A stretch of 23,832 nt of DNA, taken from assembly GCA_002450295.1 (NCBI GenBank), contig DJYX01000041.1:1-23832 (forward strand), given 5' to 3'. The notes below the pieces were generated by a model. The model did not search any database. It had not been told where the DNA came from and saw nothing but the letters and a program-made list of their open reading frames with translations. Positions within the stretch are counted from its first letter, which is position 1, and each line of letters opens with the position of its first letter. The stretch is from Deltaproteobacteria bacterium UBA6967 (GTDB lineage: Bacteria; SAR324; NAC60-12). This document shows positions 5,320-17,409 of the stretch, piece by piece. Position numbers and translations under genes: made by a program.

Positions 5320-5952
5320 TCAACGAGGTTCAAGTTCGCAGTGTCGAAACTCAATCTGCGGGGTAACTTCTGTGCCAAAGTGTGTATTGCAGAAGTATGC
5401 TCCACGGAACTGGGTTCCACGTAATCGTGTGCTGTAGAAGATAGTCCCTGATAGATTTGATTTCGACAAGTTAGCGTTCTGTAGGTCTGCGGTATTGAAC
5501 CAAACTCCACTTAGATTGGCTTCGGACATGTCGGCACCAAACAACTTCACTCCTTTTAAATTGGCACCTTGGAGATTTGCTCTTTTTAGATTTGCGCCTC
5601 GCAGATTTGCACCCTCTAGATTGGAACCCTGCAGATTTGCGCCCTGCAAATCTGCTTGCTCTAAGTTGGCACCTCGCAAGTTACTACTAGAGAGATCGGC
5701 TACCTGAAGATTCGCACTGAAAAAGATTGTCTTCGCCATATCGGAAGAACGGAGATTGGCACCGTTCAGTTTGGTCATCCGCAGATCAGCCTCACTGATA
5801 TTGCACTCTACGCACGCTCCAAAATTACGTAATCGACCCAGATCTCTTTGGTCATAAGCCCAGAGAAATTGGGGAACGATCCATCCCAAGCTGACAAGGA
5901 GCCAGCAAAGGCCAAGTGGTAGAGACAATCGGAACTGTCGAAGGAGATGCAT
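5320..5952 (-). CDS. Exported pentapeptide-repeat protein
   Basis: This 210-residue protein begins with a positively charged segment and a hydrophobic stretch (about residues 10-32), consistent with a signal peptide or membrane anchor. Residues about 52-190 are near-continuous A(N/D)LxG-type pentapeptide repeats, including GANLQGSNLEGANLRGAN, which predicts a right-handed quadrilateral beta-helix. The pair CVEC (47-50) just before the repeats and two cysteines near the C-terminus could form disulphides after export. Such proteins have no single function; many are of unknown role and some bind protein partners. It is on the same strand as the cox genes, 272 nt upstream, but nothing shows that it belongs to CO oxidation. 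A 7-bp inverted repeat (5315-5331) overlaps the stop codon. Confidence 0.85.
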   Translation of the reverse strand: MHLLRQFRLSLPLGLCWLLVSLGWIVPQFLWAYDQRDLGRLRNFGACVECNISEADLRMTKLNGANLRSSDMAKTIFFSANLQVADLSSSNLRGANLEQADLQGANLQGSNLEGANLRGANLKRANLQGANLKGVKLFGADMSEANLSGVWFNTADLQNANLSKSNLSGTIFYSTRLRGTQFRGAYFCNTHFGTEVTPQIEFRHCELEPR

Positions 5953-12228: not shown

Positions 12229-12713
12229 TCTTACCTCAATAATGAAAATAATTGTTCAGCAAAATAAATCATCTTTAAAGTTGTGTCTAACATCACCTCC
12301 TTTCATTACCATTGCACAGCTCTTTTCCATCATCAATGTGGCTAGAACAGCTTTTCCAGACCATCCAATTGTCTAAATGAATTTACAGTCTTACGTCGGC
12401 TTCAAATGAAAGTTTGTGCCTATATTTTAGAATGTTTGATACTAGAATCGAAAGATAGTTAGTAATTTATTACCTAATATTTCAAGTCTTTTTCTCGTGA
12501 GTGAATATGCTGATTAGTGTATCGCACAATTCAAAAGGTTAATTTTTGGTCAAATTCAAATTAACTGATTAATTTTTAATCAAATTAGACATTGAATTAC
12601 AATTAATTTTATAAGAACTTTACACGAAAATTATCATTAAATAATATCAGTATTTCTTCATCCTGTAGTTGAAACTTTAAGATTACTTAGTTTTTTCACT
12701 CCGCATTTTTTAA
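12229..12713. promoter_or_regulatory. AT-rich divergent intergenic region with repeats and leader signals
   Basis: This region of about 485 nt separates the amide operon (minus) from the MFS gene (plus) and must serve both. It contains a sequence matching the ideal Shine-Dalgarno (AAAGGAGGTGAT on the minus strand, 12292-12303) that is not followed by an obvious gene; an 18-nt near-repeat, TTAATTTTTNNTCAAATT, at 12539-12556 and 12569-12586; and a perfect inverted repeat TGATTAA-TTT-TTAATCA at 12566-12582. The repeats are plausible regulator sites. I see no confident -35/-10 pair, no recognisable riboswitch and no real gene. Confidence 0.4.
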
Positions 12714-12719
12714 GATTAT

Positions 12720-13958
12720 TTGAGTATTTTGGTGTTTTTAAATTTAGATTCATTTCTGCGAAAATGGTTTGAAAAAATTCCCTCAACTGTCGGCTGGTTA
12801 GGACTGTGCTTTGCTCTGTCAGGCACCTCTGCGAGTTTGACGATTTCAGCGGCCGCCTTGGTAGGACAACGAATTGCCGACGACCCGGCATGGGCCACGC
12901 TACCTCTTTTTCTCAATTTACTTGGCACGATGAGCAGCGGTATTCCAGCTTCTCTACTGATGCAAAGAATTGGGCGACGCAACGGTTTCCGACTGGGGAC
13001 TCTCGTCGGCATGTTGGGAGGGTTAATGAACATCTATGCGATTCAATCCGAAAGTTTCATTCTTTTCTGCTTAGGCAGTTATCTGATCGGTTGTCTACTT
13101 GGTTTTGGGCAGCTCTATCGATTTGCGGCTATCGAAGTGACTCCTAAGGAACACAAGGCAAGGGCCGTCTCTCTTGTGTTATTTGGTGGGATTTTATCTG
13201 GAGTTCTCGGACCTGGAATCGCCTTGCTGACCAAAGATTGGGTGGAAGGAGCTCCTTTCATGGGAAGTTACCAGTCCCTGATAGGTCTCTACATCCTGAT
13301 TTTTCTACTGTTGCAACTGGTAGATCTACCAAAGCCCGCGGCCAGTGAGCAGCAACCCCGAACACGTCCATTCTGGGAAATCACTCGCCAGACTTCCTGG
13401 AAAGTCAGTATCCTCAGTGCCGCTCTGGGCTACGCAGCAATGTCACTAGTCATGACAGCAACCCCGCTCTCCATGCAGGCTCATCATCACTCTTTCTCTA
13501 CATCAGCCTTCGTTATTCAGTGGCATATCATTGCCATGTTCCTACCTTCTTTCTTCACTGGAAACATAATTCAGTGCTTCGGTAGCAAGAACATCATGCT
13601 GGTAGGAATCGGCCTGAACCTACTATGTATCCTGATCAATACCCAGGGACAGTTCTTTGTGTTTTACTGGTCTGCTCTGATATTGTTGGGAGTGGGCTGG
13701 AATTTCATGTTCATTGCCGGCACAACACTATTGACGGAAACCTATCGGCCCGAGGAGAAGGCACTGGTGCAGGGAGTCAATGACGTACTAGTGTTTGGGT
13801 CAGCTGCGAGTGGTTCACTACTGGCGGGGGTATTACAGAATCATATCGGTTGGGAGTCACTAAACACGGTTTTGGCCCCTCCCCTGCTTCTTTTAGCGGG
13901 ATGGTTGCTTTGGCTGAAGCGGAAGAAAAGGATATTGGTTCAACAACCACTTCAATAA
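12720..13958 (+). CDS. Major facilitator superfamily transporter, non-ATG start
   Basis: The 412-residue protein has about twelve hydrophobic segments. The loop between helices 2 and 3 reads LLMQRIGRRNGFRLG, close to the MFS motif A, and the second half has FFTGNIIQCFGSKN at the equivalent place. Substrate is unknown. An in-frame stop at 12711-12713 means the frame can only begin after it, and it has no ATG before about codon 70; TTG at 12720, TTG at 12729 or GTG at 12732 are the options, none with a strong ribosome-binding site. The hydrophobic first helix (WLGLCFALSGTSASL) is complete, so the protein is probably full length. Its last 314 bp are duplicated downstream. Confidence 0.8.
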   Translation: MSILVFLNLDSFLRKWFEKIPSTVGWLGLCFALSGTSASLTISAAALVGQRIADDPAWATLPLFLNLLGTMSSGIPASLLMQRIGRRNGFRLGTLVGMLGGLMNIYAIQSESFILFCLGSYLIGCLLGFGQLYRFAAIEVTPKEHKARAVSLVLFGGILSGVLGPGIALLTKDWVEGAPFMGSYQSLIGLYILIFLLLQLVDLPKPAASEQQPRTRPFWEITRQTSWKVSILSAALGYAAMSLVMTATPLSMQAHHHSFSTSAFVIQWHIIAMFLPSFFTGNIIQCFGSKNIMLVGIGLNLLCILINTQGQFFVFYWSALILLGVGWNFMFIAGTTLLTETYRPEEKALVQGVNDVLVFGSAASGSLLAGVLQNHIGWESLNTVLAPPLLLLAGWLLWLKRKKRILVQQPLQ

Positions 13959-14136
13959 AAAAAGAATGAACCCTAATGAGTCTCGTTGCTCTTAACAGAG
14001 ACATAGAAGTTATAGACGCACATCATGAAGGCAATTAAACTGATCAATCCCAGATCAAGACGGGGCACTTTATAAACCAAAATTTCAAGGAAAATGCCCA
14101 GCGCCATGGTACCTGTAAGGGCTAACACAAAACGCA
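13645..14136. repeat. Tandem duplication, copy 1 (492 bp)
   Basis: This unit starts at AGGGACAG inside the MFS gene, runs through its stop and through the convergent small-gene copy, and ends at ACAAAACGCA. It is repeated immediately at 14137-14628 with the same length and no net indel. By hand alignment the copies differ at roughly 50 of 492 positions, so they are about 90% identical. Copy 1 keeps the functional MFS 3' end. Confidence 0.93.
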
Positions 14137-14137
14137 A
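13973..14137 (-). pseudogene. Duplicate of the 54-residue membrane protein gene, lacking ATG and ribosome-binding site
   Basis: This minus-strand frame of 54 codons is the copy-1 counterpart of the gene at 14465-14629. The duplication joint falls on its start codon: what is ATG in the other copy is TTG here, and the upstream GGAG signal is replaced by MFS-derived sequence. The frame has no internal stop and differs from the intact protein at about five residues besides position 1 (I7L, I10T, A11M, G18E, D43N). It has no visible means of expression, so I treat it as a remnant; weak translation from TTG cannot be excluded. Confidence 0.7.
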
Positions 14138-14453
14138 GGGACAGTTTTTCGTGTCTTACTGGTTAACTCTAATTTTGTTGGGAGTGGACTGGAATTTCAT
14201 GTTCATTGCCGGCACGACACTATTGGCGGAAACCTATCGGCCCGAGGAGAAGGCACTGGTGCAGGGAGTCAACTAAGTGCTAGTGTTTGGGTCAGCTGCG
14301 ATTGGTTCACTACTGGCGGGGGTATTACAGAATCATATCGGCTGGGAGTCACCAAATATAGTTTTGATGACTCCCCCATTTCTTTTGGCGGGATGATTGC
14401 TCTGGCTGAAGCGGAAGAGAAGAATCTTGGTTCAACAACCACTTTAATAAAAA
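14137..14453 (+). pseudogene. Decayed 3' fragment of the MFS transporter gene
   Basis: This is the copy-2 duplicate of the last 104 codons of the MFS gene. It has no start of its own and has acquired in-frame stops, including TAA where the intact gene has a GAC codon (after LVQGVN, near 14274) and TGA replacing a Trp codon in the last helix. Substitutions include G to D and S to L inside a membrane helix, which suggests lost constraint. About 35 of 314 bases differ from the intact copy by hand count. Confidence 0.88.
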
Positions 14454-14628
14454 AAGAATGAACCCTAATGAGTCTCGTTGCTCTTAACAGAGACATAGAA
14501 GTCATAGACGCACATCATGAAGGCAATCAAACTGATCAATCCCAAATCAAGACGGGGCACTTTATAAACCAGAATTCCTAGAAAGATGCCCAGCGCCGCA
14601 ATGCCTGTAATGGCTAACACAAAACGCA
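14137..14628. repeat. Tandem duplication, copy 2 (492 bp)
   Basis: Second unit of the duplication, directly abutting copy 1. It carries a decayed MFS fragment on the plus strand and the intact small membrane-protein gene on the minus strand. The joint at 14136/14137 shows little or no microhomology beyond one or two bases. Confidence 0.93.
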
Positions 14629-14629
14629 T
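14465..14629 (-). CDS. 54-residue two-helix membrane protein, unknown function
   Basis: The ATG at 14629 has a GGAG signal about 9 nt upstream and lies 4 nt after the amidase stop, so the gene is the tail of the TRAP operon and probably translationally coupled. The protein has two hydrophobic segments, about residues 3-22 (VLAITGIAALGIFLGILVY) and 28-46 (LGLISLIAFMMCVYDFY), separated by the short charged turn KVPRLD, and a polar C-terminus SVKSNETH. I do not recognise a family. Its conservation within the duplication (no stops in either copy) supports it as a real gene. A role as small accessory subunit of the TRAP transporter is conceivable but only inferred from position. A longer frame beginning at 14722 overlaps the amidase gene and is unlikely. 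Confidence 0.7.
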   Translation of the reverse strand: MRFVLAITGIAALGIFLGILVYKVPRLDLGLISLIAFMMCVYDFYVSVKSNETH

Positions 14630-14633
14630 CTGT

Positions 14634-15995
14634 TCACTCTCCACTAGAAGATTGATCACGTGCAGTTGTTTCCAACCAGCGTGCAGTTCGTAAGAGCCGG
14701 GCTTCTCCTGCTGGAGGTCCAACTAATTGAACTCCCAAAGGCATTCCCGAAGTCGATTGAAACAGCGGCATGCTTAATACCGGTATCCCACAGAGATTCC
14801 ACAAATCTTGAAAATGAGTTGATTCCTCAGAATTCCCGCGACACGGTGCTGTTCCCAAAGTAGCAGGAACCACGAAGGCATCGCAGCGCTGGAGGATTTC
14901 TTCCAGCCCAGAACGTAAGACCTTGATCCAGTCTAAGGCTTCCAAGTACTCATTGGCGCGCACCTCTGCGCCATCAGCTAATATATGCTGAAGAGCCTCA
15001 CTCAATCTTTCTTTGCCTCGATTCCAATAGTGTCTTAGTGTTCGGGAAAGCTCTGCCTTAACGATCAGATCATGGGCAGCCAATCCCTCTTCAAATAGTG
15101 GTGGTAACACAACACGGAATGCCTGATCTCCAAGCACTTCTTCCAGTTCTACTAGCGCTGCCTCGGTTTCCTCATCTAGCTGGGCAAAAGGCAACTCCAG
15201 AAAAGCGATGGTCGGCTTGACCGGAACATTGCTAAGACAGGTTTCCAGCAATCGTGTTGGGGTGTTCAAGCGTGTGCTGGAATCTTGATCGTCATAGCCA
15301 TACAGTACATCTCCCAACAACGCCAAATCCGCCAGAGAGCGACCGAGCAAGCCGACTGTATCCAGAGTCGGCACAAGCGGTAGAATTCCGCGCCGTGAAA
15401 TACTTCCGTAACTTGGCTGCATTCCATAGATGCCACAGTAGGCAGCAGGACGCAATACTGAGCCACAAGATTCTAAGCCGACACCCATTGACGCCAAACC
15501 AGCTGCGATTGCGGCTGCGGCACCACTCGCGGAGTTTCCAGGGCGGTGTTCCGCACTCGTCGGATGCATGGTTTCGGGTGGAGTAACAACTCCAAGTTCA
15601 GAGACCCTCGTTTTCCCCAACAGCACTGCTCCACTGGCTTTTAAGCGTTCGGCAACTGCAGAGTCTTTGAATCCTTGTTTTGCTGCATCAAGCTTCGTTC
15701 CATTGGTCGTTGGCTGTTGCTGAGTTTCGATCAGATCAGACAACACGATCGGCAATCCATGAAGTGGTCCAACCGAACGACCACTCAACCGAAACACATC
15801 CAGTGCCTGAGCAGCTTCCAGAACCAGTTTGGGCTCGATTGAGGTAAAGGCCTGTAATTTCGGTTCTACTTCTCCTGCCTCCCGCAATACTAACTCACAT
15901 ATTTCCCGAACCTTTTGGCCTCCTGCCTGGAGATTACGAAGCAATTCCAGAGTAGCAATACTCTGGAAAAGTGTAGGAACTGTCTCACTTGCCAT
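14634..15995 (-). CDS. Amidase-signature family protein lacking the catalytic lysine
   Basis: The 453-residue protein has the amidase-signature fold seen in GatA and related enzymes: GPLHGLPIVLSDLIET (76-91), PGNSASGAAAAIAAG (152-166) and ESCGSVLRPAAYCGIYG (175-191). The nucleophile serine is at Ser179 and the cis-serine at Ser154. The lysine that acts as general base in the Ser-cisSer-Lys triad, normally in GIPxxxKD, is Ser86 here (codon TCT, checked). The second Ser and Gly of GGSSGG are also changed. The protein may be inactive, use another base, or bind rather than hydrolyse an amide. It overlaps dctM by 11 nt, so it is part of the TRAP operon. GatA itself is unlikely because no gatB or gatC is nearby. 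Confidence 0.82.
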   Translation of the reverse strand: MASETVPTLFQSIATLELLRNLQAGGQKVREICELVLREAGEVEPKLQAFTSIEPKLVLEAAQALDVFRLSGRSVGPLHGLPIVLSDLIETQQQPTTNGTKLDAAKQGFKDSAVAERLKASGAVLLGKTRVSELGVVTPPETMHPTSAEHRPGNSASGAAAAIAAGLASMGVGLESCGSVLRPAAYCGIYGMQPSYGSISRRGILPLVPTLDTVGLLGRSLADLALLGDVLYGYDDQDSSTRLNTPTRLLETCLSNVPVKPTIAFLELPFAQLDEETEAALVELEEVLGDQAFRVVLPPLFEEGLAAHDLIVKAELSRTLRHYWNRGKERLSEALQHILADGAEVRANEYLEALDWIKVLRSGLEEILQRCDAFVVPATLGTAPCRGNSEESTHFQDLWNLCGIPVLSMPLFQSTSGMPLGVQLVGPPAGEARLLRTARWLETTARDQSSSGE

Positions 15996-17409
15996 AAAAT
16001 ACTTCTGGTAGGTAGAAGACGATTTCTGGGAAGACGTAGATCATAAACATGGAGATGAAAACCATTGCTAGAAAGGGCATGCAGCCCGCAAAGATCTCTG
16101 TCAATTTGACATGCGGTGGCGCAATTCCCTTGAGATAATAGGCTGACATCGCCATTGGTGGTGTGAGGAAAGAGGTCTGTAGGTTAAGCGCAACCAGAAT
16201 CCCGAAGAATAGCGGATCGATCCCAAATTGAGGTAGCAGTGGCAGGAAGATGGGGACAAAGATGATGATGATCTCCGACCACTCTAGTGGCCACCCCAAC
16301 AGGAAAATGATCAACTGAGCTAAAAGTAAAAATGTTACTGGTGAGAGATCTAGGTGCTCAACAAACTCAGAAATAATCTGCTCACCTCCAAGATATGAAA
16401 ACACTGAAGAAAAGGTGTACGATCCAACGAACAGCCAGCAGACCATCGCTGTAGTTCGCATTGTCAGATAAACAGATTCACGCAGCCGCTGCCAAGTCAG
16501 TGCTCGGTAAGCGACCGCTAGCAACAGACCACCCATTGCCCCCACAGACGCTGCTTCTGATGGAGTCGCCAAACCACCGAGGATTGATCCAAGCACTGCT
16601 AGAATCAGTACAGCTAGAGGAAGGAAAGAAGTCATTAACATCCAGATCACTTTCAGCACTGGTATATCTGGAACTTCATCCTTGCTTGGCTTGGGTGCCA
16701 TCTCCGGTTGGACTATAGACCGGCCCACCACATACACCAGATACAGTCCGGCTAACATAAAACCTGGAAATAATGCACCTGCGTAGAGTCGAACAATTGA
16801 AGTCCCAGAAGCAGCTGCGTAGACAATGAGCATAATCGAAGGTGGAATCAAGATGCCCAGTGTTCCACCAGCACAGATAATCCCGGAAGCGAAACTTGTG
16901 TTATAACGGGCCTTAAGCATCGCTGGGAAAGCTAGTAGTCCCATCAGAGTAACAACAGCGCCAACGATTCCAGTAGCTGTGGCAAAAAGTGCGCAGGTGA
17001 TCAAGGCTGCGAGGCCCATAGATCCTGGTAAATTCTTCGCTGAAATATTCAGAGTATAGAAAAGTCTGTCAACTATATTTGCTCGTTCGACAATATAACC
17101 CATGAACAGGAACAATGGTACTGCTGTCAGTACCTCATTTGCCATCACCGTGTAGGTCTGGTTGATAAATAAATCGAATATCCTGCTATTGAAGAAACCC
17201 TCAATCCAGGTTTGAAATAGTGTGAAATCATCCGCATCTTTCCGAATCGCTCGATCAAAAGATCGCCACATTCTGCCTTCGTCAAAGTAGGCATAATAGC
17301 CAAACCCTATTCCCATTGCCATCAGCGTAAAAGCGATAGGGAAGCCAAACATGACTGCTCCAAGGAACAGACCCAACATCAACAGTGCAATTTGCGGATC
17401 GGTCATCAT
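15985..17409 (-). CDS. dctM: TRAP transporter large permease, DctM type
   Basis: The 474-residue membrane protein has the repeated helical architecture of DctM subunits, with typical segments such as LFLFMGYIVERA, GTLGILIPPSIMLIVYAAASGTSI (partly, near the first scoop motif) and FLTPPMAMSAYYLKG. It is longer than the common 425-residue DctM because of an inserted loop with DEGRMWRSFDRAIRKDADDF, as in the mannitol/chloroaromatic or 2-oxo-acid branch. It drives substrate uptake with a Na+ or H+ gradient together with DctQ and DctP. ATG at 17409 overlaps the dctQ TGA; the AGGAG signal is only 2 nt from it, so the second ATG at 17406 is better spaced. Confidence 0.93.
   Translation of the reverse strand: MMTDPQIALLMLGLFLGAVMFGFPIAFTLMAMGIGFGYYAYFDEGRMWRSFDRAIRKDADDFTLFQTWIEGFFNSRIFDLFINQTYTVMANEVLTAVPLFLFMGYIVERANIVDRLFYTLNISAKNLPGSMGLAALITCALFATATGIVGAVVTLMGLLAFPAMLKARYNTSFASGIICAGGTLGILIPPSIMLIVYAAASGTSIVRLYAGALFPGFMLAGLYLVYVVGRSIVQPEMAPKPSKDEVPDIPVLKVIWMLMTSFLPLAVLILAVLGSILGGLATPSEAASVGAMGGLLLAVAYRALTWQRLRESVYLTMRTTAMVCWLFVGSYTFSSVFSYLGGEQIISEFVEHLDLSPVTFLLLAQLIIFLLGWPLEWSEIIIIFVPIFLPLLPQFGIDPLFFGILVALNLQTSFLTPPMAMSAYYLKGIAPPHVKLTEIFAGCMPFLAMVFISMFMIYVFPEIVFYLPEVFYGK

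Follow-up and report, generated by a model that had tools for sequence, protein, structure and literature searches.

A 492-bp tandem duplication in a draft bacterial genome leaves two convergent genes whole in different copies

How does a short tandem repeat come to hold the ends of two neighbouring genes, each of them whole in a different copy, and does such an arrangement call for anything beyond the duplication itself? The question is raised by positions 13645 to 14628 of the window, by which is meant the whole stretch of 23,832 bases analysed here. At this locus a transporter gene of the forward strand enters the repeat from the left and a small gene of the reverse strand enters it from the right, and a second, detached part of each lies in the other copy. 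The explanation is very probably a simple one, namely a tandem duplication in which the MFS transporter gene extends intact into copy 1 and the small gene intact into copy 2, the detached fragments of both most likely decaying.

The repeat is made up of copy 1 (13645..14136) and copy 2 (14137..14628), two head-to-tail units of 492 bp each, which by direct count differ at 49 of 492 positions (90.04% identity) with no indel. Tandem Repeats Finder reported the same region, 13645-14628, with a period of 492, 2.0 copies, 90% matches and 0% indels, and in a repeat search of the 23,832-base window this was the sole family of direct repeats reaching 30 nt or more, with a spacing of 492. Its ends are sharp on both sides, with position 13644 differing from 14136 and position 14137 from 14629, and the duplicated segment starts within the MFS gene and stops at the opening bases of the small gene. 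When the genome itself was queried with 13000-14900, that locus alone gave a match. The original prediction of two tandem copies of equal length, approximately 90% identical and free of indels, was thus right to the base, and its mismatch figures, 35 of 314 positions in the MFS part and 14 of 178 in the remainder of the unit, were reproduced by direct count. The accompanying claim that changes are denser in the MFS part is not borne out statistically (Fisher p = 0.28), and this contrast in density was dropped as a sign of uneven decay.

The MFS transporter gene (12720..13958, + strand), which runs into copy 1, is intact and codes for a protein of 412 aa that matches the Pfam family MFS_1 (PF07690) with 86.3 bits, above the curated cut-off of 33.4. 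Copy 2 possesses a detached 3′ fragment of this gene (14137..14450, + strand, 314 bases), which is without a start of its own. This fragment had been said to contain stop codons and three were found in frame (14274-14276, 14394-14396 and 14445-14447), all before the old stop, two of them being internal and the third lying just ahead of the old stop.

The small gene is intact at 14465..14629 (− strand, 54 codons, 54 aa), with its ATG at 14629-14627 on the right edge of copy 2. This ATG lies four bases past the stop of an amidase gene (14634..15995, − strand), which is upstream of the small gene and outside the duplicated unit, and it is preceded by a GGAG resembling a ribosome-binding site. A detached copy of the small gene is found within copy 1 (13973..14137, − strand), where everything upstream of the start has been cut off, including the GGAG. 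That this copy had lost its ATG and ribosome-binding-site-like sequence is correct, but its frame is unbroken, because it is open throughout and a TTG made by the joint stands at the position of the ATG. TTG is a permitted start codon in bacteria.

With regard to the 54-aa protein itself, a search of family profiles gave no match above cut-off; DUF4267 (PF14087) was considered and rejected, its score of 15.7 bits falling below the cut-off of 27.8. The protein has 94 database matches, with homologues of 54 or 63-64 aa in length. One of its database clusters spans 316 contigs, and one homologue bears a SAR324 cluster name. A small protein 94% identical to it, P0007, comes from a contig of 37,851 bp. 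Among the 31 genomes of the family that were searched, the small gene is present in five, these being five of the six of this genus and none of the 25 others.

The presence of the two genes, whole, in different copies is an inevitable result of the geometry of a tandem duplication and not a coincidence. A tandem duplication adds one joint and keeps both of the old edges, and because of this both genes remain whole: whatever gene enters from the left must run on through copy 1, and whatever gene enters from the right must run on through copy 2. At this locus, one 492-bp segment, from the interior of the MFS gene to the very beginning of the small gene, would have been duplicated in place, an event which would add the joint 14136/14137, keep the old edges and so leave both genes whole by geometry; the two detached fragments would then most likely decay without selection. 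The geometrical argument needs neither selection nor luck, and it is our own reasoning, being neither computed nor taken from a paper. The prediction of a different surviving copy for each gene is therefore true, though automatic for any tandem duplication. Since every tandem duplication treats the genes crossing its ends in this way, the pattern of survival is no evidence of selection or of special design.

The draft assembly of this genome is fragmented (290 contigs, 69% complete) and the window is one of its contigs, a setting in which assembly may have put two strain variants of one single-copy locus head to tail. The joint provides a means of judging this, as it is spanned by an ORF of 60 aa (14094..14276, + strand), useful as a joint marker only. 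Compared with approximately 5.8 billion proteins, this ORF gave four matches, the best of which (P0001, in a cluster of four member sequences) has the same residue at 59 of 60 over all 60 positions. P0001 originates from a separate contig of at most 548 bp and therefore from another molecule than the 23.8-kb contig, though it may stem from the same sample. Because the joint ORF recurs, with one residue different, on this separate 548-bp contig, an assembly error is unlikely. In addition, the MFS part of copy 2, with its three in-frame stops and a spectrum of changes (described below) resembling that of DNA free of selection, does not resemble the working allele of another strain, and the joining of strain variants during assembly appears most improbable.

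A longer query crossing the joint, aimed at sister lineages in which copy 2 might be less decayed, gave 11 matches, of which six were inspected (P0103 and P0105-P0108 were left out). Among the six, P0101, P0102 and P0104 have ordinary MFS sequence at their start and do not span the joint; P0002, P0003 and P0004 start inside the MFS part. A 23-base pattern of the joint had no match in viral_contigs.

The DNA of 13000-14900 was also searched against 39 genomes, this genome included, of which 17 matched. The strong matches were with four genomes of the same genus (G001-G004); a fifth genome of the genus (G005) was without a match. In G001 the locus is present as a single copy, with the order MFS gene, small gene and amidase gene as in the window, and G002, G003 and G004 have one copy each of the shared part, the DNA beyond it being different. 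The joint at 14136..14137 is the single new one, and it is not found in any of these four relatives. In a tree of the sequences compared, the two copies are sisters in the MFS part with an ultrafast bootstrap of 100, and 44 sites are shared by the copies to the exclusion of the relatives used. Because the relatives are single-copy, the copies are sisters with full support and these 44 sites are shared, the duplication is shown, as judged by sequence comparison, to have arisen in the lineage of this genome after its split from the four relatives of the same genus in which the locus is present. A tandem duplication in place, as originally predicted, is borne out by the single copy of G001 in the same context together with the grouping of the two copies. 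Comparison with close relatives had been proposed as a check, an independent paralogue being the finding that would speak against the prediction; one copy in place was found, and such a paralogue was not seen.

The same relatives vary in the neighbourhood of the unit. The small gene of G002 and G004 is a remnant lacking about the first 20 residues, and that of G003 is a remnant lacking the very start only. No close orthologue of the amidase was found in the genomes of G002, G003 and G004, where the best match has 38-39% identity. Further right of the MFS gene, these three have a gene for a glucose/sorbosone dehydrogenase, and the dehydrogenase region is 94% identical between G002 and G003, which is above what their MFS genes would suggest. 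The MFS gene of G001 has one in-frame TAA near the edge of its contig, which may be real or an edge error.

To assign the differences between the copies, changes were polarised against G001-G004, with only G001 and G003 being used beyond 14050, as G002 and G004 have lost that part. Two rules were used, one following the majority of the relatives and the other being stricter. In the MFS part the majority rule places 26 changes in copy 2 and 8 in copy 1, with one unassigned (p = 0.003), and the stricter rule places 25 in copy 2 and 8 in copy 1, with two assigned to neither. In the tree, the branch of copy 2 for this part measures 0.111 and that of copy 1 measures 0.019. Sixteen of the 26 changes in copy 2 replace an amino acid or make a stop, where approximately 67% would be expected without selection (the expectation was set at 67.5%); in copy 1 this is the case for three of the eight.

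These figures bear on another possible origin, in which the copies were already different on meeting, unequal recombination with a diverged strain having set a foreign version beside the resident one. A divergence of 10% is large for a repeat that recombination can remove, and the mismatches are clustered over the unit (p = 0.013 for the sum of squared identical runs; p = 0.084 for the longest run of 57 nt), a feature which would suit a foreign version and which could also mean some gene conversion. When the MFS part is taken by itself, the copy 2 changes are not significantly clustered (p = 0.23 and 0.07). However, working alleles would differ mostly silently, unlike the MFS part of copy 2 with its 16 of 26 changes to amino acids or stops; the copy 2 branch is also about six times the length of the copy 1 branch, and the two copies are mutually closest among the sequences compared. 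The arrival of a foreign version is hence very improbable, and the differences are better ascribed to duplication in place with change thereafter.

For the small gene, the majority rule gives seven changes in each copy, and the stricter rule gives seven in copy 2 and five in copy 1, with two assigned to neither. Its branch in copy 1 (0.032) is shorter than that in copy 2 (0.066), contrary to copy 1 decaying faster. As to the kind of change, four of the seven changes in copy 1 alter the protein, compared with two of seven in copy 2, and those of copy 1 have affected a glycine kept in 94 of 94 homologues and an aspartate kept in 91 of 94. When pooled, the parts still attached to their genes have 5 protein-altering changes of 15, which is below the no-selection expectation (p = 0.007), and the detached parts have 20 amino-acid or stop changes of 33, which is not below it (p = 0.25); compared directly with each other, attached and detached parts do not differ significantly (Fisher two-sided p = 0.12). 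For both detached fragments, decay free of selection is the most likely course. The original prediction that the duplication is neutral and records decay is thereby partly supported. It holds for the MFS fragment of copy 2, with its excess of changes, its three stops and the nature of its replacements; for the small gene of copy 1 the equal counts lend it no support, and decay there is only hinted at by the kind of change and the two conserved residues.

The even split of the small-gene changes would also suit a repeat that is kept by selection, either with the small ORF of copy 1 being translated from the TTG of the joint or with the 492 bp acting as a spacer between convergent transcripts. 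This ORF is open and has a usable start codon, and dN/dS between the two small genes is 0.051/0.258. A scan of 12500-16100 found no terminator-like site between the two genes, its four promoter-like sites (4.0 expected) and two terminator-like sites (3.4 expected) all lying outside the unit. The age of the repeat, considered below, is in keeping with selection as well, age alone being weak evidence. Against these points, the upstream sequence resembling a ribosome-binding site has been lost from copy 1, and the residues changed in it are near-invariant in the 94 homologues. Maintenance by selection is thus quite unlikely, and a duplication with two fragments most likely in decay remains the preferred reading.

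Silent divergence between the copies is much the same in the two parts of the unit, with Ks at 0.244 over 100 codons of the MFS part and at 0.258 over 53 codons of the small gene, as a single event would give. Against the four relatives, Ks amounts to 0.99-1.16 for the portion of the MFS gene that precedes the unit and to 0.62-1.44 for the portion inside it. The repeat would appear to be old on the scale of species divergence, and not recent, because the Ks of approximately 0.25 between its copies is comparable to that between G001 and G002 (0.278). Tandem duplications are described as often unstable, with loss or inactivation of one copy as their usual fate, in the available part of PMC3857721, and the shortest of the constructed duplications in the available part of PMC12607827 (2.6 and 3.3 kb) were lost slowly but measurably.

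The duplication likely originated through an error of replication or repair with little or no homology between the ends. In the window itself there is no overlap at the ends of the unit. Three of the four relatives (G001, G002 and G004) have ACGC just left of the unit, and the right end has ACGCA; if the ancestor had ACGC, the joint may have been steered by a short match of a few bases, which is suggestive at most, and the joint carries one A beyond a simple ACGC/ACGCA overlap.

One way in which an initially unstable repeat may have come to persist is that decay in opposite parts of its two copies made most routes of losing it costly. A crossover in the MFS part would carry the stops of copy 2 into the only working MFS gene. 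The copies share seven identical stretches of at least 20 nt, summing to 241 nt, of which 134 nt lie inside the MFS part. The longest of them (57 nt, 13954-14010) sits between the two genes, and a crossover there would be expected to collapse the repeat harmlessly; because of the position of this stretch, any lock would be at most partial. Such locking by decay is considered doubtful as the cause of persistence. If true, a repeat without a function of its own would have become a lasting part of the genome.

The idea has a counterpart in the SNAP hypothesis which, in the part of the source available (PMC7055797), consists of a duplication followed by the loss of different genes from the two copies, with a lock being proposed for large duplications. 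In common with what is set out there, different copies lose different genes at this locus. It differs from that account in that the losses here are immediate from the positions of the ends, that gene order is unchanged and that the unit is without any whole gene including its own start region. A partial lock of the SNAP type at this locus is possible on the basis of its sequence, and if decay did lock the repeat, the lock proposed in the available text for large duplications would have a sub-gene counterpart here in miniature.

The locus is a confirmed, well-preserved and ordinary tandem duplication. It has in common with bacterial tandem duplications followed by pseudogene decay the head-to-tail copies, one new joint with the old edges kept, a single copy in relatives and a relaxed constraint on the detached MFS part. 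It differs from them in that the unit is only 492 bp, with ends that fall within two genes or at their edge, and in that the repeat is old for its kind (Ks approximately 0.25). With such an age, the locus could serve to test the persistence of very short tandem repeats. As each gene end is present once attached and once detached, it is also a small natural experiment, in which 984 bp allow a direct comparison of change under selection with change free of it. A literature search, by which subscription journals were mostly not covered, found no paper on this locus and none on SAR324 together with tandem duplication. Elsewhere in the window, imperfect tandem repeats of 30 bp and 15 bp are present at 5550-5648, these being the coding repeats of a gene for a pentapeptide-repeat protein (5320-5952, − strand).
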